From: Salinispira pacifica
Lineage (GTDB): Bacteria; Spirochaetota; Spirochaetia; DSM-27196; Salinispiraceae
Direction of reading: 5' to 3'
Assembly (NCBI RefSeq): GCF_000507245.1
Contig: NC_023035.1
Coordinates: 1,129,001 to 1,193,000 of the forward strand
Length of the DNA: 64,000 nt
Under the pieces are notes generated by a model. The model had not been told where the DNA came from and did not search any database. It worked only from the letters and a program-made list of their open reading frames with translations. Position 1 is the stretch's first letter. Each line of letters begins with the position of its first letter. Made by a program: the position numbers and the translations under genes. Shown piece by piece: positions 15,505 to 47,290 of this stretch.

Positions 15505-15525
15505 GATGGTTCTGACGCAATATTT

Positions 15526-17144
15526 AGGGCCTCCTGAAAAAACCCTATGCTGCCATATTACCATACCCCAATACCACGGGGTAATGAGACTTCGGAATTT
15601 TTCGGCTGCGTAACATAGCTATGATCAAGACGTAAAAAAGATCCTTCCGAATCTTTTCCAGGTTCATCACCAGCATGATCATGGCCACCTGCGATTCACT
15701 GGTCTCAGCAAGCTTTGTCATTAATCGACCCATTGAGTACCGTCGTTTGGCTCTGCCGAATGTCCCTTCTACGGCGATTCTATCCAGCTCATCCTGACGG
15801 GCCAGCTTCTTTCGTTCTCGATTTTCTCCACGATCTTTCGGTGGACGACCAAGCGGCGGACCGGATAATCTGATTCCCCGTTTCTTGCACCAATTTCGGT
15901 TGTCCCTGGTGCGGTAAATCTGATCGGCGTGTATTGATTCCGGATACACGCCATATCTCTGTTTGTAATTTTCAGCCTGCATGTCTAAATCACCAGACTC
16001 GTTGTATGGATCCCATGAACAGCGATCGATGAACATGTACCCGTCAATATTGGCGGATGAAATCTTCATGCCGAACTCAACCGGGGTACCGGCTTTTCCC
16101 CTGACTATGGGGCGAATATGGGGTTGGGATATGCTCACGATCCGGCCTGACATTCGATGATCTTTGTTTTCATACATCAGGGCCTGCTGGCGAAAGACTT
16201 CTGAGATCACCAGCAGATTCCGGTACTGCTGCCGAGACAGGCTATTCAAGCCGACTACCGTCGCTAATTGCTCTATGTGCCGGAGATTACGGCGTATGTA
16301 CCCCAGCTGCTTGCGTATTGCTTTGCGAATCTTGTTCTTGCTCGCTTTGCGCTTTTTGATGACCGCCAAAAAATCCTTTCGCGCCCTTTGCCGGTATGTT
16401 CGGGGTTTTGTCGCCCCTTGGGCCGTTTTGCGTGAAGAACGTCTATGATGGTTTCCAGTTTTGTCCGGCTCTCATTTAAAAGGGAAAGGTCTGTGGGATA
16501 TCGAATATCACCGGGTACGCAGGTGGCATCAATCAGAAGCTTTCCGTTGTTTTCTACCTCAGGATTTTCTTCTTTTTCAGCTTCCGTATCATCTTCAGTT
16601 TTTTTTTACGTTCTTCGGCAATAATCAATTCATTTGCGTGAGTGATCATGTCCATGCTGATTCGCTTTCTGAAATGGACCATCATTGATGGATCAAAAGG
16701 AGCCTCATCTTGGTACCCCTGCATTCCGATGAGATATTGCAGGTAAGGCGTCTCACGAATCTGCTCCACGGTTTCCTCATCTGTAATTCCTAATTTTTCC
16801 TTTATAATCAGGGCACCCAATGCTGTACGGAAACGGATCGCCGGAGCGCCTTGCCCGCTTTCGATAGCAAACTGTGAGGCATATTCTGCTTCTAAATCTT
16901 CCCAGGGAATTAAATCAGCAAGCTGTACCCAGCGGTTATTGGGGTTCAGTTTGCCTCCAAATGGGAGATAGAAATCTTCAAATGAAAGCTGCGTTTTGTC
17001 CTCAGTTCTATACATAATCCCTCCCGCCAAGAAAACAGGTGCAAGGGTTTTTGCCTGGTTTTCGCAAAAACCGTGCACTTCATACACAAATCCTAGCAGT
17101 ATTTCATTTATATGTATAGGGTTAAGGTTTTTTCAGGAGGCCCT
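15526..17144 (-). mobile_element. IS5-type insertion sequence, copy A (1619 bp)
   Basis: The ends are the inverted repeats AGGGCCTCCTGAAAAAACC and its complement. The 4 bp sequence ATTT borders both sides (15522-15525 and 17145-17148), a target duplication. Four copies exist in the window. Copy A differs from copy D by one missing G in a G5 tract near 16408, which accounts for its length of 1619 rather than 1620 bp. It sits between the efflux operon and the DUF2784 gene. Confidence 0.93.
15545..17015 (-). pseudogene. IS5-type DDE transposase, copy A, frameshifted
   Basis: The start ATG at 17015 follows GGAGGG. The first frame gives the DUF772-type N-terminal domain (FGGKLNPNNRWVQLADLIPW to DPSMMVHFRKRI) and ends at 16554. 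The DDE domain lies in a second frame (LLIDATCVPGD, HADQIYRT, VEGTFGRAKRRY) ending at 15545. The frames meet at an A9 run (16599-16607), suggesting a -1 frameshift in the active element. A further 1-base deletion near 16408, absent from copies B, C and D, breaks the second frame, so this copy is probably inactive. Confidence 0.85.
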
Positions 17145-17167
17145 ATTTATGGAGGGAGTGATTGAGC

Positions 17168-17602
17168 TTAATGCCGGCGTCGCAAGCTTGAATACCGCAG
17201 ATAATCCCGGACATTCAGCGTAAGCGTCATCACAATGATCAGCACAAATACAATCGTAGTGACCCGTTGAGTCAGCAGATAGGGCGGATACAGCCCGGTC
17301 AGTTCTATAATGAGAAACTGGATGTAGGAATTGTGCAGCGGAGGTTTTCCAAGCAAAGATCGAACATTCCAGTGCCAGTCGGTCCAGAAACAGTAGCCGA
17401 AACCATGCCAGTATCCCAGAACTACCCATGAGAAAATGGTTAGAAGAACTGTAATAAGATGGATGCGGCGGGTTTTTACAAATCTCCACCCGACAATAGT
17501 GAATAGAATAAACAGTGTATGAAAAATGAGGGAGATATTGTCAAATGTTGTGGATTGAAAAAGCAAACCATACCGCCTAAGCCGCTTCATCCAGAACACC
17601 AT
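17168..17602 (-). CDS. DUF2784-like membrane protein
   Basis: A 144-residue protein with four hydrophobic helices. The pattern LIFHTLFILFTIVGW followed by GYCFWTDWHWNVRSLLG resembles DUF2784, a small inner-membrane family of unknown role with a 'CPLTxWE/TDWHW' motif. It stands alone between IS copy A and a decayed fusion gene transcribed the other way. No function is assigned. Confidence 0.72.
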   Translation of the reverse strand: MVFWMKRLRRYGLLFQSTTFDNISLIFHTLFILFTIVGWRFVKTRRIHLITVLLTIFSWVVLGYWHGFGYCFWTDWHWNVRSLLGKPPLHNSYIQFLIIELTGLYPPYLLTQRVTTIVFVLIIVMTLTLNVRDYLRYSSLRRRH

Positions 17603-17679: not shown

Positions 17680-19895
17680 AGAATCTTACACTACCGGGAT
17701 TTATTCAGTTTGCCGACTTTCTGCCCATCGCCTACAATCAAATATTCTCAGAGATGGGCAGTATGTATTGGCGCACCGAAGGGGCCTGGGAGGCCCCGGT
17801 ACTGCTGATGATCACATCAGGCGGCTACAAGCCGGGGCTTGGACCGTTTCACGCATCGAGCCTGGAGGCTTTCGGTGTGCATACCCCGGGAATTGATGTG
17901 GTTATGCCTTCAACCGCCGGCGATGCGGCGGGCCTCTTGAACAGCATATTCCGCACCAACAGACCGACTCTGTTTTATTATCCGAAAAACTGCCTGAACG
18001 ACCGTGAAAGCACCACCAGCACCGACATCGCAGATCACTTTGTTCCGGTGGGCAAGGCCTGTCTGGTCAATGAGGGCAGCGACATCAGCCTTATCGGCTG
18101 GGGCAATACGGTCTCGCTGATAAAAAAGCCGGTGCGGCTCTGGAATCATAAGGGATATCTGCTGAAATCATCGACTTAAGAAGCCTTTCCCTCTGGGATG
18201 CCGATGCGGTCTGCTCATCGGTGGCTAAAACCGGCCGGGTGATCATTGCCCATGAAGACAACAAGTTTTCGGGCTTCGGTGCGGAAATCCTGGCCGAACT
18301 CTCAGAGCGCATGGATGCTCCCTTTGCAGCCCGGCGGGTTGTCCGCGACACACCTACGTTCCCTGCAACTTCGGCAATCAGCTCGAAGTATTGCCATCCT
18401 ACAAGCGGATTCTCGAGACCGCCGTTGAAATGCTCGGCGGATCGTTGAGCTGGAAACTGGACGGCGCAGTTCGGGCCGGAGAGTTTGTGATTGAAGCAAT
18501 CGGTTCCAGCCCGTCGGACGAGATGGTCACGGTTATTGAGTATCTGGTATCGGAAGGCGATACGGTGGCCGACGGCCAGATCGTGGCCAGTGTGGAAGCT
18601 GACAAGGCGGTGACCGAAATCGCCTCGCTAACATCGGGAACGGTTATAGGCTTTCTGGCAGAGGAGGGTGTCGAGGTCGCCGTCGGCAAGGGGCTTATAC
18701 GGCTCAAGTCCGATACTGAGATTATCGCCAAACCTCCCACCAGGGAAGAACCGGGAACGCCGATTATCAGCATCGCTCCATCGGCCCTCCGTCCCGTTGT
18801 GACAGCCACCGTTTCCGCCGGAGCTGGAGCTGCGGGCAGTACAGCGACTGCTTCAGCGGACTATGAAGCTGCGGCAAGCCCCGCCGGTGAAACATTCACC
18901 GTGGGTATTGCGGGAGTCGCGTCGAGCATCGGTACCCGGGTAGTAACCACGACGGAAATCTCTGAAATGTGTCCTACCTGAAGTCCGGAAGATATCGTCA
19001 AGCGCACCGGCATTCACAGCCGTCACAGGGCCGACGATTCCCAGTCCGCCCTGTCCATGGCCGTGGACGCAGCGGTCAAGATAATCGATGAGAAAAATAT
19101 CGATGTACGCAAGCTGGCCGGTATCATCTGCTCGACGGGTACTCCCGAAGAAATTACTCCGTCGATGTCATGCCGAATTCTCGACGAATTAAGCCGCCGC
19201 TATGCCTCGCCGGATTCGGAGCACAGCGGCGAAAGCTCTGATGAACTGGAAATGCCGGCGTTTGACATTTCTGCTGCCTGCTCGGGCTACCTGTACGGTC
19301 TCCAGCTCGCCTACGATAAGCTGCTAGCCGGGGACCGGTCAAGCCCATTCTGCTGATCACCAGCGAACTGCTTTCCCGCCGCCTCGATACCTCCGACCCG
19401 TCGACAGCCCCCATCTTCGGCGATGCGGCGACGGCTACCCTGGTGGCTGCAGCAGGTCAGGGGCAGGAAATAGGCTATCGCATACACCGTCCGTTGACCC
19501 TGGCCTCCGGCGACCGCGACAGGGTATTGACGGTACCCGCAGATGAATCGGGGATGATTCAAATGGATGGGCCGGCGGTGTATCAGAAGGCGGTGAAGGC
19601 GATGATGGATTCGCTGAGCCGGGCTGCCGAAGCCTCCGGCTTTGATGCAACTGCTCTGGAGCTGATAGTTCCTCATCAGGCGAACCAGCGAATTATTAAT
19701 GCGGTTCGTCAGAGGATGAAGCTGGACAAAAGCAGGGTATTCTCGATGATCGCCGAATACGGCAATACATCGTCCTCCACCATTCCGCTTTGTCTGGAGA
19801 AGCTTGCCATCGATAAGGTTGCACCTGCAACCATGGGATTAACCGCGTTTGGAGGCGGTTATACCTATGCGGCTGCTGTTTTGGAAAAGATGTAA
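17680..19895 (+). pseudogene. Decayed fusion: E1 beta (2-oxoacid dehydrogenase) - lipoyl domain - ketoacyl-ACP synthase III
   Basis: Three recognisable parts follow one another on the same strand with several frameshifts and stops. About 17680-18410: transketolase-like E1beta (FIQFADFLPIAYNQIFSEMG, HTPGIDVVMPSTAGDA, GRVIIAHEDNKFSGFGAEI). About 18470-18720: lipoyl-like domain (GDTVADGQIVASVEADKAVTEI, with Lys at the modification site). About 18890-19895: KASIII/FabH (FDISAACSGYLYGL with the active Cys, LIVPHQANQRI, EYGNTSSSTIPL). Breaks are seen near 18136, 18162, 18350, 18980 and 19340, and the E1beta N-terminus is missing. Such a fusion could load a branched or unusual acyl starter from a 2-oxoacid straight onto a condensing enzyme; that is an inference. 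Confidence 0.8.
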
Positions 19896-29243: not shown

Positions 29244-29424
29244 CGGTAATTATCGTCAAGCTGTTTTACCAGCTATCCTTCCCATGATACAAAAGTAAAC
29301 GGGAATGATAAAATTCTCCAATTTTTTATGAAAGATTAGCCTGTCCGATTTTAGCCTGCGTTACAGGCGTGAGGACAGTTAGCGGGAAAGAACAAGGTGG
29401 TGGTATGAAAACTGAACAGCAATT

Positions 29425-30473
29425 AGGGCCTCCTGAAAAAACCTTAACCCTCTACATATAAATGAAATACTGCTAGGATTTGTGTATGAAGTGCACGGTT
29501 TTTGCGAAAACCAGGCAAAAACCCTTGCACCTGTTTTCTTGGCGGGAGGGATTATGTATAGAACTGAGGACAAAACGCAGCTTTCATTTGAAGATTTCTA
29601 TCTCCCATTTGGAGGAAAACTGAACCCCAATAACCGCTGGGTTCAGCTTGCCGATTTAATCCCCTGGGAGGATTTGGAAGCAGAATATGCCTCACAGTTT
29701 GCTATCGAAAGCGGGCAAGGAGCTTTGGCGATCCCTTTTCGGACAGCTCTTGCAGCCCTGATTATCAAGGAAAAACTGGGCATTACTGATGAAGAAACTG
29801 TCATGCAAATCCAGGAAAACCCTTATCTGCAGTACCTGATTGGCATGCAAGGTTACCGGGATGAAGCGCCGTTTGATCCATCGATGCCTGGTCACTCGCT
29901 ACGCTCGTTGCCCGGCCGTGCATCCGGGATGACGCACTTCAGGAAGCGAATCAGCATGGACATGATCACTCACGCAAATGAATTGATTATTGCCGAAGAA
30001 CGTAAAAAAAACTGAAGATGATACGGAAGCTGAAAAAGAAGAAAATCCTGAGGTAGAAAACAGCGGAAAGCTTCTGATTGATGCCACCTGCGTACCCGGT
30101 GATATTCGATATCCCACCGATCTTTCGATTTTAAACGAGAGCCGGGAAAAACTGGAAACCATCATAGACGTTATTCACGCAGAACGGCCCAAGGGCGCGA
30201 CAAAACCCCGAACATACCGGCAGAGGGCGCGAAAGGATTTTTTGGCTGTCATCAAAAAGCGCAAAGCGAGCAAGAACAAGATTCGCAAGGCAATACGCAA
30301 GCAGCTGGGGTACATACGCCGTAATCTCCGGCATATAGAGCAATTAGCAGCAGGTGTCGGTTTGAAAAGCCTGTCACGGAAACAGTACCGGAATCTGCTG
30401 GTGATCTCAGAAGTCTTTCGCCAGCAGGCCCTGATGTATGAAAACAAAGATCATCGAATGTCAGGCCGGATCG
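29425..30473 (+). mobile_element. IS5-type insertion sequence, copy B, 3' end lost
   Basis: Begins with the same terminal repeat (AGGGCCTCCTGAAAAAACC) as copies A, C and D and matches them up to GGCCGGATCG, then stops abruptly at 30473 where unrelated, IS3-linked sequence starts. The distal ~570 bp and the right repeat are missing. It carries the 42 bp insertion also seen in copy C and an A8 run at 30004-30011. Confidence 0.9.
29554..30473 (+). pseudogene. IS5-type transposase fragment, copy B
   Basis: It has the N-terminal domain (FGGKLNPNNRWVQLADLIPW) and the start of the DDE domain up to the MSGRI motif, so it lacks two of the three catalytic acidic residues. The first frame ends right after the A8 run with KKN and a stop. 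It diverges more than the other copies (for example VMQIQENPYLQYLIGMQGYRDEA), so it is probably an older insertion. Confidence 0.88.
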
Positions 30474-36770: not shown

Positions 36771-37507
36771 GTGTACGCTCAGCAAACGCTTAATTTTTCA
36801 TCTGTTTCAGAATCACAGTATATACCACGTGGCCGGAATGAGCTTCACCGGATTTTCGAGCAACATTTTTCTGATTTCTGTTCTGAATACGACATGAAGT
36901 ATGCAACAGATTATGGCAAATTCCGTCTGCAAAGAATTGAGAACGCAGGAGAGAAATTTATTACCTGTGGCGATTATCTACACGGAATCGCACGCATCCG
37001 CTGTCAAAACAAAGATTGCGGCTATGACTATTTCAGACCATTTTCCTGTAAAGGGTTTTATCTCTGCCCATCCTGCAGTCAGAAACGAACATTGCTGCTT
37101 TCTGAACATTTCACTGAAGAGGTGTTCCTTGATCTTCCCTGGCTGCATGGCCGAGCAGGAAACCGCAGGTTTCCGACCAGGCCCCATCGACAGTTTGTTT
37201 TTACCCTTCCGAAAGTCCTTCGGCTTATCTTTCGCCGCAACCGCACACTCTTTGCCAAAGTTTCACGGTTAATAAACCAGCTCATTTCCGATTTTTATTC
37301 ATATGTAACCGGAAGGACTATTCGTTTTGGAATGATCGTAGCACACCAGACTTTCGGTGATTAAAGGTGCGTACCGCAGCAGCATGTGCTGATGCGAGGA
37401 ACGCACCGACAATGCTTCGTTGGAACCCGCATTTCCACTGCATCGTTCTTGAAGGAGGCTTCGACCAGGATGGCCAATTCTTTTATATTCCATTTTCCGA
37501 TTTAAGT
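36771..37507 (+). pseudogene. IS91-type (Y1/HUH) transposase remnant
   Basis: The first ~195 residues match the zinc-binding N-terminal region of IS91/ISCR transposases: CGDYLHGIARIRCQNKDCGYDYFRPFSCKGFYLCPSCSQKRT with its Cys pairs, then QFVFTLPKVLRLIFRRNR. A stop at 37362 coincides with a 42 bp palindromic insertion, after which the frame resumes (RWNPHFHCIVLEGGFDQDG) until IS copy C begins at 37508. The catalytic tyrosine region is missing. Confidence 0.82.
37366..37407. repeat. Small nested palindrome inserted in the IS91-like gene
   Basis: Outer arms GGTGCGT (37366-37372) and ACGCACC (37401-37407), inner arms CAGCA (37380-37384) and TGCTG (37387-37391). It lies exactly where the transposase frame is broken between FGD and RWNPHFH, so it looks like a small palindromic insertion, similar in style to REP/RPE elements. 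Confidence 0.6.
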
Positions 37508-39168
37508 AGGGCCTCCTGAAAAAACCCTATGCTGCCATATTACCATACCCCAATACCACGGGGAAATGAGACTTCGTAATTTTTCGGCTGCGTAGCATAG
37601 CTATGATAAAGACGTAAAAAAGATCCTTCCGAATCTTTTCCAGGTTCATCACCAGCATGATCATGGCCACCTGCGATTCACTGGTCTCAGCAAGCTTTGT
37701 CATTAATCGACCCATTGAGTACCGTCGTTTTGCTCTGCCAAATGTCCCTTCGACAGCTATTCTATCCAGCTCATCCTGACGGGCCAGCTTCTTTCGTTCT
37801 CGATTTTCTCCACGATCTTTCGGTGGACGACCAAGCGGCGGACCGGATAATCTGATTCCCCGTTCCTTGCACCAATTCCGGTTGCCCCTGGTGCGGTAAA
37901 TCTGATCGGCGTGTATTGATTCCGGATACACACCATATCTGTGCCTGTACTTTTCAGCCTGCATGACTAAATCACCAGACTCGTTGTATGGATCCCATGA
38001 ACAGCGATCGATAAACATGTACCCGTCAATATTGGCGGATGAAATCTTCATGCCGAACTCAACCGGGGTACCGGCTTTTCCCCTGACGATGGGTCGAATA
38101 TGGGGTTGGGAGATACTCACAATCCGGCCCGATATTCGATGATCTTTGGATTCATACATCAGTGCCTGCTGGCGAAAGACTTCCGAGATAACCAACAGAT
38201 TCCGGTACTGCTGCCGAGACAGGCTATTCAAGCCGACTACCGTCGCTAATTGCTCTATATGCCGGAGATTACGGCGTATGTACCCCAGCTGCTTGCGTAT
38301 TGCCTTGCGCATCTTGTTCTTGCTTGCTCTGCGCTTTTTGATGACAGCCAAAAAATCCTTTCGCGCTTTCTGCCGGTAGGTTCGGGGTTTTGTCGCCCCC
38401 TTGGGCCGTTCTGCGTGAAGAACGTCTAGGATGGTTTCCAGTTTTTCCCGGCTCTCATTTAAAAGGGAAAGGTCTGTGGGATATCGAATATCACCGGGCA
38501 CGCAGGTGGCATCAATCAGAAGCTTTCCGTTGTTTTCTACCTCAGGATTTTCTTCTTTTTCAGCTTCCGTATCATCTTTCGTTTTTTTTACGTTCTTCGG
38601 CAATTATCATTTCATTTGCCCGGGAAATCATGTCCATGCTGATTCGCTTTCTGAAATGAACCATCCCGGATGCACGGCCGGGCAACGAGCGTAGCGAGTG
38701 ACCAGGCATGGATGGATCAAAAGGAGCCTCATCCTGGTACCCCTGCATTCCGATGAGATATTGCAGGTAAGGCGTCTCACGAATCTGCTCCACGGTTTCC
38801 TCATCTGTAATTCCTAATTTTTCCTTTATAATCAGGGCACCCAGAGCTGTCCGAAACTGTATTGCCGGAGCGCCTTGCCCGCTTTCGATAGCAAACTGTG
38901 AGGCGTATTCTGCTTCTAAATCTTCCCAGGGAATTAAATCAGCAAGCTGTACCCAGCGGTTATTGGGGTTCAGTTTGCCTCCAAATGGGAGATAGAAATC
39001 TTCAAATGAAAGCTGCGTTTTGTCCTCAGTTCTATACATAATCCCTCCCGCCAAGAAAACAGGTGCAAGGGTTTTTGCCTGGTTTTCGCAAAAACCGTGC
39101 ACTTCATGCACAAATTCTAGCAGTATTTCATTTATATGTATAGGGTTAAGGTTTTTTCAGGAGGCCCT
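37508..39168 (-). mobile_element. IS5-type insertion sequence, copy C (1661 bp)
   Basis: Both terminal repeats are intact. Its length equals that of copy D (1620) plus the 42 bp insertion minus one A in the A-run. The flanks AAGT and ACTT are not direct repeats, unlike copies A and D, which suggests that recombination between IS copies has replaced one side. It separates the IS91-like remnant from the attC-like site at 39200. Confidence 0.93.
37527..39039 (-). CDS. IS5-type DDE transposase, copy C (two frames)
   Basis: Start at 39039 behind GGAGGG. The first frame carries the N-terminal domain with the 14-residue insert PGHSLRSLPGRASG between DPSM and MVHF and ends at 38572. The second frame is open from 38603 to 37527 and holds the complete DDE domain (DATCVPGD, HADQIYRT, VEGTFGRAKRRY). 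The A-run here has eight A (38582-38589), so joining the frames needs a +1 or -2 shift rather than the -1 of copies A and D. Activity is doubtful. Confidence 0.8.
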
Positions 39169-39199
39169 ACTTTGGAAACGGAATAATTTCGGGGCCGGG

Positions 39200-45347: not shown

Positions 45348-45430
45348 GCTAGTAATTTCCTTTTGTGTAATGGTTTAGTGGTAAACACATTATGCACAGA
45401 TAAAAGGCAAATTACTAGCTTTTTTTATTT

Positions 45431-47050
45431 AGGGCCTCCTGAAAAAACCTTAACCCTATACATATAAATGAAATACTGCTAGGATTTGTGTATGAAGTAC
45501 ACGGTTTTTGCGAAAACCAGGCAAAAACCCTTGCACCTGTTTTCTTGGCGGGAGGGATTATGTATAGAACTGAGGACAAAACGCAGCTTTCATTTGAAGA
45601 TTTCTATCTCCCATTTGGAGGCAAACTGAACCCCAATAACCGCTGGGTTCAGCTTGCTGATTTAATTCCCTGGGAAGATTTAGAAGCAGAATACGCCTCA
45701 CAGTTTGCTATCGAAAGCGGGCAAGGCGCTCCGGCGATCCGTTTCCGTACAGCATTGGGTGCCCTGATTATAAAGGAAAAATTAGGAATTACAGATGAGG
45801 AAACCGTGGAGCAGATTCGTGAGACGCCTTACCTGCAATATCTCATCGGAATGCAGGGGTACCAAGATGAGACTCCTTTTGATCCATCAATGATGGTCCA
45901 TTTCAGAAAGCGAATCAGCATGGACATGATCACTCACGCAAATGAATTGATTATTGCCGAAGAACGTAAAAAAAAACTGAAGATGATACGGAAGCTGAAA
46001 AAGAAGAAAATCCTGAGGTAGAAAACAACGGAAAGCTTCTGATTGATGCCACCTGCGTACCCGGTGATATTCGATATCCCACCGATCTTTCGATTTTAAA
46101 CGAGAGCCGGGAAAAACTGGAAACCATCATAGACGTTCTTCACGCAAAACGGGCCAAGGGGGCGACAAAACCCCGAACCTACCGGCAGAAAGCGCGAAAG
46201 GATTTTTTGGCGGTCATCAAAAAGCGCAGAGCAAGCAAGAACAAGATGCGCAAGGCAATACGCAAGCAGCTGGGGTACATACGCCGTAATCTCCGGCATA
46301 TAGAGCAATTAGCGACGGTAGTCGGCTTGAATAGCCTGTCTCGGCAGCAGTACCGGAATATGCTGGTGATCTCGGAAGTCTTTCGCCAGCAGGCACTGAT
46401 GTATGAATCCAAAGATCATCGAATGTCAGGCCGGATCGTGAGCATATCCCAACCCCATATTCGCCCCATAGTCAGGGGAAAAGCCGGAACCCCGGTTGAG
46501 TTCGGCATGAAGATTTCATCCGCCAATATTGACGGGTACATGTTTATCGATCGCTGTTCATGGGATCCATACAACGAGTCTGGTGATTTAGTCATGCAGG
46601 CTGAAAAGTACAGGCACAGATATGGCGTGTATCCGGCATCAATACACGCCGATCAGATTTACCGCACCAGGGATAACCGAAATTGGTGCAAGGAACGGGG
46701 AATCAGATTATCCGGTCCGCCGCTTGGTCGGCCACCGAAAGATCGTGGTGAAAATCGGGAACGAAAGAAGCTGGCTCGTCAGGATGAGCTGGATAGAATA
46801 GCTGTCGAAGGGACATTTGGCAGAGCAAAACGACGGTACTCAATGGGTCGTTTAATGACAAAGCTTGCTGAGACCAGTGAATCGCAGGTGGCCATGATCA
46901 TGCTGGTGATGAACCTGGAAAAGATTCGGAAGGATCTTTTTTACGTCTTTATCATAGCTATGCTACGCAGCCGAAAAATTACGAAGTCTCATTTCCCCGT
47001 GGTATTGGGGTATGGTAATATGGCAGCATAGGGTTTTTTCAGGAGGCCCT
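45431..47050 (+). mobile_element. IS5-type insertion sequence, copy D (1620 bp)
   Basis: Complete copy with both terminal repeats and the 4 bp duplication ATTT (45427-45430 and 47051-47054). It is the best reference copy: A9 run present, no 42 bp insert and no G deletion. It is nested in the IS4-type element, so it arrived after it. Confidence 0.95.
45560..47031 (+). CDS. IS5-type DDE transposase, copy D (programmed frameshift likely)
   Basis: The start ATG at 45560 follows GGAGGG. Frame 1 encodes the DUF772-like N-terminal domain and ends at 46021. From an A9 run (45968-45976) the -1 frame is open (TEDDTEAEKEENPEVENNG, then LLIDATCVPGD, HADQIYRT, VEGTFGRAKRRY) to 47031. A -1 slip on the A-run gives one protein of about 490 residues, as in several IS families with slippery A tracts. 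All DDE motifs are visible. This is the copy most likely to be active. Confidence 0.85.
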
Positions 47051-47290
47051 ATTTAACCGGACAGCAGTGGTCGTAAATATTTTTTCATAGTATTTGGTGT
47101 ATACATCTATCTCAGAAATGTTCTCTTCCTTAGCCAATCTACTAATACTTTTTGTTTCGTAGTTTTCAATTTTATATACTTCTATATCATTTCCATAACC
47201 ATCTTTTATTGTTTTAAAAGTAACCGTCAATTTACCAGGCCCTGCACAACCTGAGCTTTAGATGGAATAATTCTTCCACATGGAGGAATT

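Follow-up and report, generated by a model that had tools for sequence, protein, structure and literature searches.

A decayed gene of Salinispira pacifica belongs to a family of single-chain E1–lipoyl–ketosynthase III fusions that may start fatty acids without acyl-CoA

In a 64,000-nucleotide stretch of the Salinispira pacifica genome (NC_023035.1, positions 1,129,001 to 1,193,000; hereafter the window), the remains of a 2-oxo acid dehydrogenase E1beta, a lipoyl domain and a FabH-like ketosynthase III (KASIII) directly follow one another. This raises the question of whether the three parts once formed a single protein, in which an acyl group released by oxidative decarboxylation could pass straight to a condensing enzyme, or whether deletions have merely brought separate genes together. 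The genome is a single contig of 3,782,798 bases, and positions 17697-19895 of the window (plus strand) correspond to a 5′-truncated, frameshifted E1beta–lipoyl–KASIII gene that is spread over three frames. The features of this region are as follows:

15524..17154, minus strand: multi-copy insertion sequence of about 1.63 kb (own-genome DNA search; transposase-like ORFs)
17697..18364, plus strand: E1beta remnant, C-terminal part of the pyrimidine-binding domain and Transketolase_C (PF02779, PF02780; tblastn with intact relatives)
18484..18705, plus strand: lipoyl domain, in the frame shared with the end of E1beta (PF00364, 3.1e-13; frame translation)
18706..18897, plus strand: linker with a conserved KPxTREEPGTPxI stretch and an Ala/Pro-rich part, without an E2 catalytic domain (frame translation; alignment)
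18898..19895, plus strand: KASIII remnant, with a TGA at 18979-18981 and a frame change near 19323-19341 (PF08545, PF08541; frames; residue comparison)

Pfam searches with the unrepaired pieces recovered, on the plus strand, Transket_pyr (5.2e-7) followed by Transketolase_C (2.3e-5) in the E1beta part and, downstream of it and in order, Biotin_lipoyl (3.1e-13), ACP_syn_III (1.1e-4) and ACP_syn_III_C (1.5e-21). Similarity to intact relatives extends from about 17697-17700 up to the stop codon at 19893-19895, with 58-65% identity of the E1beta remnant within 17700-18149 (tblastn), and the whole of E1alpha, together with roughly 80 N-terminal residues of E1beta, is missing on the 5′ side. The frame changes near 18113-18152, 18343-18352 and 19323-19341, together with the in-frame stops TAA (18149-18151) and TGA (18979-18981), bear out the frameshift decay noted in a preliminary description of this DNA. 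That description had also held that the three parts leave no room for separate genes, which agrees with the ORF 18391-18981, unrepaired and open further upstream: it takes in the end of E1beta, the lipoyl domain and the start of KASIII. Its account of an E1beta–lipoyl–KASIII fusion was correct as far as it went, but it missed an N-terminal E1alpha, which has been lost from the window copy. The codon of the lipoyl lysine is found at 18604-18606, within EADKA, the same Lys being present in all 38 intact relatives, and the KASIII remnant still codes for Cys (19279-19281), His (19674-19676) and Asn (19764-19766). At the positions of FabH Trp32 and Arg151 it has Asp (18991) and Pro (19398), respectively, and at position 87 Thr.

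With four whole or partial copies of the same ~1.63-kb insertion sequence in 64 kb (15524-17154, 29421-30473, 37507-39176 and 45430-47051), the window is an insertion-rich, decaying stretch. The other window copies are 89-97% alike to the first, for which a DNA search of the own genome found 16 further places matching over at least 1.4 kb at 89% identity or more. Since about 540 bases separate this first copy from the start of homology, it has not been shown that the insertion sequence caused the truncation. Between the two lies a 144-aa ORF (17168-17602, minus strand), membrane-protein-like by eye; for part of its DNA, two further genomic sites gave matches of 68-71%.

When the read-through window piece was used as a query among named genomes, eight loci were retrieved, from six spirochaete assemblies, Marinobacter halodurans and Xenococcus PCC 7305; relatives outside Spirochaetota come solely from this search. 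A sample of 198 Spirochaetota genomes included five with open frames of 1,116-1,210 aa, and the arrangement was matched in 66 of 297 Spirochaetia genomes (E <= 1e-60). A single frame of at least 1,060 aa is present in 55 of these 66, whereas ten are interrupted by contig ends and one is S. pacifica. The ten positive genomes without such a frame were checked singly, and in each the matches run into contig ends; the possibility that some members consist of separate genes was accordingly dropped. The relatives, on whose form the preliminary description had made its interpretation depend, are thus fused and not encoded by three genes. In all seven proteins tested, one ORF of 1,109-1,209 aa contains, above the Pfam cut-offs and in this order, E1_dh, Transket_pyr, Transketolase_C, Biotin_lipoyl, ACP_syn_III and ACP_syn_III_C. 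Neither the E2 catalytic domain (PF00198, E <= 0.001) nor an E2 peripheral subunit-binding domain was found in any of these seven intact fusions. In the chain, KASIII occupies the place of the E2 acyltransferase. Chance can be excluded as the origin of the arrangement, because the same order recurs in 66 of the 297 genomes and because a second, nearly complete copy exists in the S. pacifica genome itself.

The fused KASIII domains and those of the two S. pacifica copies group together in a single clade (support 100/100), within which the two S. pacifica copies are sisters (100/100). Distances between the E1 parts correlate with those between the KASIII parts (r 0.82), and none of 2000 permutations gave a value as high. 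The correlation and the single clade are what would be expected if the parts had been fused once, long ago, and passed on together. The Marinobacter fusion groups with that of a spirochaete (G130), inside the spirochaetes, and by this placement the gene has probably been transferred; the Xenococcus fusion is placed apart from all others. Horizontal spread on plasmids was considered and rejected: among 72,556 plasmid records, 1,064 show matches to portions of the fusion and none covers 80% of it. By eye, the ORF tables revealed no conserved neighbourhood and no evident fatty acid genes around the spirochaete fusions; two loci (L014 and L015) share genes on either side of the fusion, L015 having aconitase upstream and SelR downstream. 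Downstream of the Xenococcus PCC 7305 fusion and in the same orientation lie genes for a short-chain dehydrogenase, a fatty acid hydroxylase, an aminotransferase class I/II plus GNAT protein and an AMP-ligase (L020:9550-15677), a set that looks like a lipid-making or lipid-tailoring cluster of the sphingolipid or amino-lipid type.

The second S. pacifica copy is nearly full length (G000:C1:813828 to about 817290, minus strand; L051:7823-11315 equals G000:C1:813822-817314). Compared with its relatives, it has suffered two deletions of one base, both within C or G runs, which distribute it over three frames. Single-base changes in such runs are typical of real mutation and of sequencing error alike. 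The assembly was made from PacBio data with Illumina and 454 checks (PMC4511686). Over 686 codons the two copies show a dN of 0.29 and a dS of 1.49 (dN/dS about 0.2), and therefore both must have been under selection for a long time, the window copy having decayed late. From its sequence, the window copy is to be regarded as a dead paralogue of an E1alpha–E1beta–lipoyl–KASIII single-chain enzyme, and as a late pseudogene. The same source lists iso-C15:0 (11.7%) and anteiso-C15:0 among the fatty acids of S. pacifica and reports S. asiatica and S. dissipatitropha as being without iso-C15:0 (PMC4511686). Given that S. pacifica makes iso- and anteiso-C15:0 though both copies are broken in the assembly, either the fusion is not needed for branched acids there or the second copy works. 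No match to the fusion was obtained in two of the three other genomes of the S. pacifica family (G235 and G272), and a partial fusion was found in G456, a member of that family that is 57% complete.

Residue conservation was counted in 38 aligned fused proteins. The lipoyl Lys and KASIII Cys112, His244 and Asn274 are kept in all 38, as are a conserved Glu and His of E1beta and the thiamine-site Asn of E1alpha; the E1alpha His is present in 35, the remaining three being gapped. We presume these E1 residues to be catalytic. In FabH, the adenine of CoA is held between Trp32 and Arg151, and the pantetheine by Arg36 and two Asn (PMC4606726). Neither Trp32 nor Arg151 occurs in any of the 38 fused KASIII domains, position 32 being Asp, Glu or Gly (34, 2 and 2 proteins) and position 151 Pro, Phe, Ala or Val (32, 3, 2 and 1). 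The residues on the pantetheine/ACP side are retained, namely Asn247 and Arg249 in 38 and Arg36 in 35 proteins. The controls comprised 35 other KASIII-like proteins of Spirochaetota (29 loci, five same-genome controls and one second ORF); 32 of them have both Trp32 and Arg151, and in the remaining three His244 and Asn274 are missing as well. FabH of five fusion-carrying genomes has both clamp residues. Three KASIII-like proteins of S. pacifica (L008, L010 and L011) were seen to be without the KASIII His and Asn. Position 87 is Thr in 34 and Ser in 4 of the fused domains, and Phe in 25 of the 35 controls; a small residue at this position of FabH goes with larger acyl groups.

With the clamp lost and the catalytic and ACP-side residues kept, KASIII retains what is needed for malonyl-ACP and for catalysis, not what is needed for acyl-CoA. 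Loss of the clamp would be expected if the donor were the adjacent lipoyl arm; this argues against CoA without arguing positively for lipoyl, and an ACP-bound donor would also be possible. Moreover, the 38 fused proteins are not independent, since they belong to one clade, and their agreement represents one event that has been kept, not 38.

An AlphaFold2 prediction from the 38-protein alignment had a mean pLDDT of 84 and a pTM of 0.65, and hence the domains can be trusted but their arrangement cannot. The modelled KASIII part resembles E. coli FabH with a Z of 43 (43.4 to 9ka6) and an rmsd of 1.9 over 310 residues. For the modelled E1beta part, the Z scores to the branched-chain E1beta of Thermus (41.3) and human (41.2) and to a pyruvate E1beta (Bacillus PDH, 41.1) amount to a tie. 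This part is 39% identical to the Thermus branched-chain E1beta, and the solved E1 nearest by sequence is the Thermus 2-oxo acid E1. There is at most a weak hint that the fusion E1 is slightly closer to branched-chain than to pyruvate E1, and its specificity is inferred.

As for possible partners, an E3 scoring above the curated cut-off was found in all ten fusion genomes checked, and an ordinary E2 in all ten genomes examined and in 65 of the 66 fusion genomes at E <= 0.001. The stand-alone E1alpha of four genomes and E1beta of two genomes that were tested all reach the curated pyruvate dehydrogenase cut-offs, and the E2s of two genomes lie just under theirs; the fusion E1 scores far below. 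The fusion is therefore not the ordinary pyruvate dehydrogenase of these cells. Five of the ten genomes (G006, G049, G202, G217 and G243) encode, besides the fusion and near an E2, an E1-like ORF of 819-837 aa, which is perhaps an E1alpha-E1beta fusion of another 2-oxo acid dehydrogenase. In addition to the fusion, the other five (G000, G130, G142, G096 and G208) show a stand-alone E1alpha (330-354 aa) and nothing more, except that two of them also have an E1 of 939-989 aa. The short E1_dh matches in G130 and G142 resemble halves of a transketolase, as judged from their first residues only. It follows from the E1-like ORFs that the fusion is not always the sole remaining candidate for branched 2-oxo acids, and, with an ordinary E2 in all ten genomes, branched acyl-CoA could have another source. 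The idea that the fusion is the sole source of branched acyl groups was consequently dropped as a general claim.

We propose that E1alpha/beta with thiamine diphosphate would decarboxylate a 2-oxo acid, that reductive acylation would put the acyl group on the chain's own lipoyl lysine, and that the lipoyl arm would hand it to the KASIII cysteine without an E2 domain passing it to CoA. KASIII would then join the acyl group with malonyl-ACP to give a 3-oxoacyl-ACP that enters fatty acid synthesis, and the E3 of the cell would re-oxidise the dihydrolipoyl group. The architecture, its intact occurrence, the conserved catalytic residues, the loss of the CoA clamp and the presence of E3 in the genomes checked are observations, whereas the reactions are inferred. 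That the fusion is a single-chain starter enzyme of this kind, leading from a 2-oxo acid via lipoyl and KASIII to condensation with malonyl-ACP without acyl-CoA, appears to us probable, although every step is inferred and no biochemistry is available. The acyl hand-over to a condensing enzyme, already suggested in the preliminary description, is supported by the loss of the clamp with catalysis kept and by the absence of a detectable E2 domain; a direct transfer from lipoyl to KASIII is likely, again by inference and with no reaction demonstrated. The substrate is the least certain element. Branched-chain 2-oxo acids (from Leu, Ile and Val), giving iso and anteiso starters, are the likeliest and a reasonable guess. 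We incline, if only a little, towards the more complete proposal, that of a CoA-independent branched starter enzyme with lipoyl as the direct donor, which arose once, when KASIII replaced the E2 module and the CoA site was lost, and which is usual in one order of free-living spirochaetes.

The same hand-over might instead start from pyruvate, in which case acetoacetyl-ACP would be made and straight-chain fatty acids started without acetyl-CoA. E1beta does score against the pyruvate-type models PRK11892 and PRK09212 as well, and the fold of Bacillus PDH E1beta is nearly as close as that of Thermus (Z 41.1 vs 41.3). However, that job is taken by the stand-alone E1alpha and E1beta that reach the pyruvate dehydrogenase cut-offs, from which the fusion E1 is far removed, and Thr/Ser at position 87 is unlike most FabH; we hold pyruvate to be an unlikely but not negligible substrate. 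It is also conceivable that KASIII takes the lipoyl-bound acyl group and yields another product, by non-decarboxylating transfer or as a ketone or polyketide-like lipid. The lipid-tailoring set behind the Xenococcus fusion would fit such a role, as would the solitary position of the spirochaete fusions, with no evident fatty acid genes nearby by eye, but the Cys-His-Asn triad is complete in all 38 proteins and the ACP-side residues of decarboxylating FabH are kept, which makes this rather doubtful.

An arrangement serving co-regulation only, with E1-lipoyl and a separate E2 making acyl-CoA and KASIII using CoA independently, would be compatible with the ordinary E2 of nearly all fusion genomes (65 of 66, E <= 0.001); we consider it improbable, given that the CoA-adenine residues are gone in 38 of 38 proteins and the subunit-binding domain is absent in seven of seven. 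Finally, deletions between three once-separate genes could have produced the appearance of a fusion in the window copy, given its decay and the insertion sequence nearby. This has practically no chance of being right, since 55 genomes have an uninterrupted frame of at least 1,060 aa and the window copy falls inside that clade; it is refuted by the intact fused relatives.

With the 2-oxo acid dehydrogenase complexes (branched-chain E1 of Thermus thermophilus, PDB 1UM9; pyruvate E1p/E2p/E3), the fusion shares the E1alpha/E1beta domains, the lipoyl lysine motif and, by inference, the thiamine/lipoyl chemistry; unlike them, it carries E1alpha, E1beta and lipoyl on one chain and has a ketosynthase at the place of the E2 core. 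Its KASIII equals FabH (E. coli 1HN9, B. subtilis FabHA) in fold (Z 42-43), Cys-His-Asn triad and HQAN-RI motif, but is without Trp32 and Arg151, has Thr/Ser for Phe87 and is joined to its presumed acyl supplier. Mycobacterial KGD consists of an E1o fused to an E2o-type acyltransferase domain. Matched in the structure comparison (PDB 2YID, 8P5R), it is likewise a natural single chain in which a thiamine-dependent 2-oxo acid E1 is combined with another catalytic domain, the extra domain being an acyltransferase in KGD and a carbon-carbon bond forming ketosynthase in the fusion. In Bacillus and Streptomyces, branched fatty acids are primed by the Bkd complex and FabH, with free acyl-CoA between separate proteins; the proposed overall outcome, from a 2-oxo acid to a branched 3-oxoacyl-ACP, is the same.

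In the textbook view, acyl groups leave 2-oxo acid dehydrogenases as CoA thioesters and KASIII is loaded from CoA. Literature searches, several of them on narrow or peripheral topics, turned up no account of a fusion of E1, lipoyl domain and KASIII. Through its residue signature (Trp32 and Arg151 absent, Thr/Ser at position 87) the claim can be tested directly on a single purified protein, and, if it holds, a self-contained loading module would be available to enzyme engineers. Oxidative decarboxylation and fatty acid initiation would then be united in one machine, which would suggest a way for free-living spirochaetes to set the choice of starter unit without a free acyl-CoA pool.
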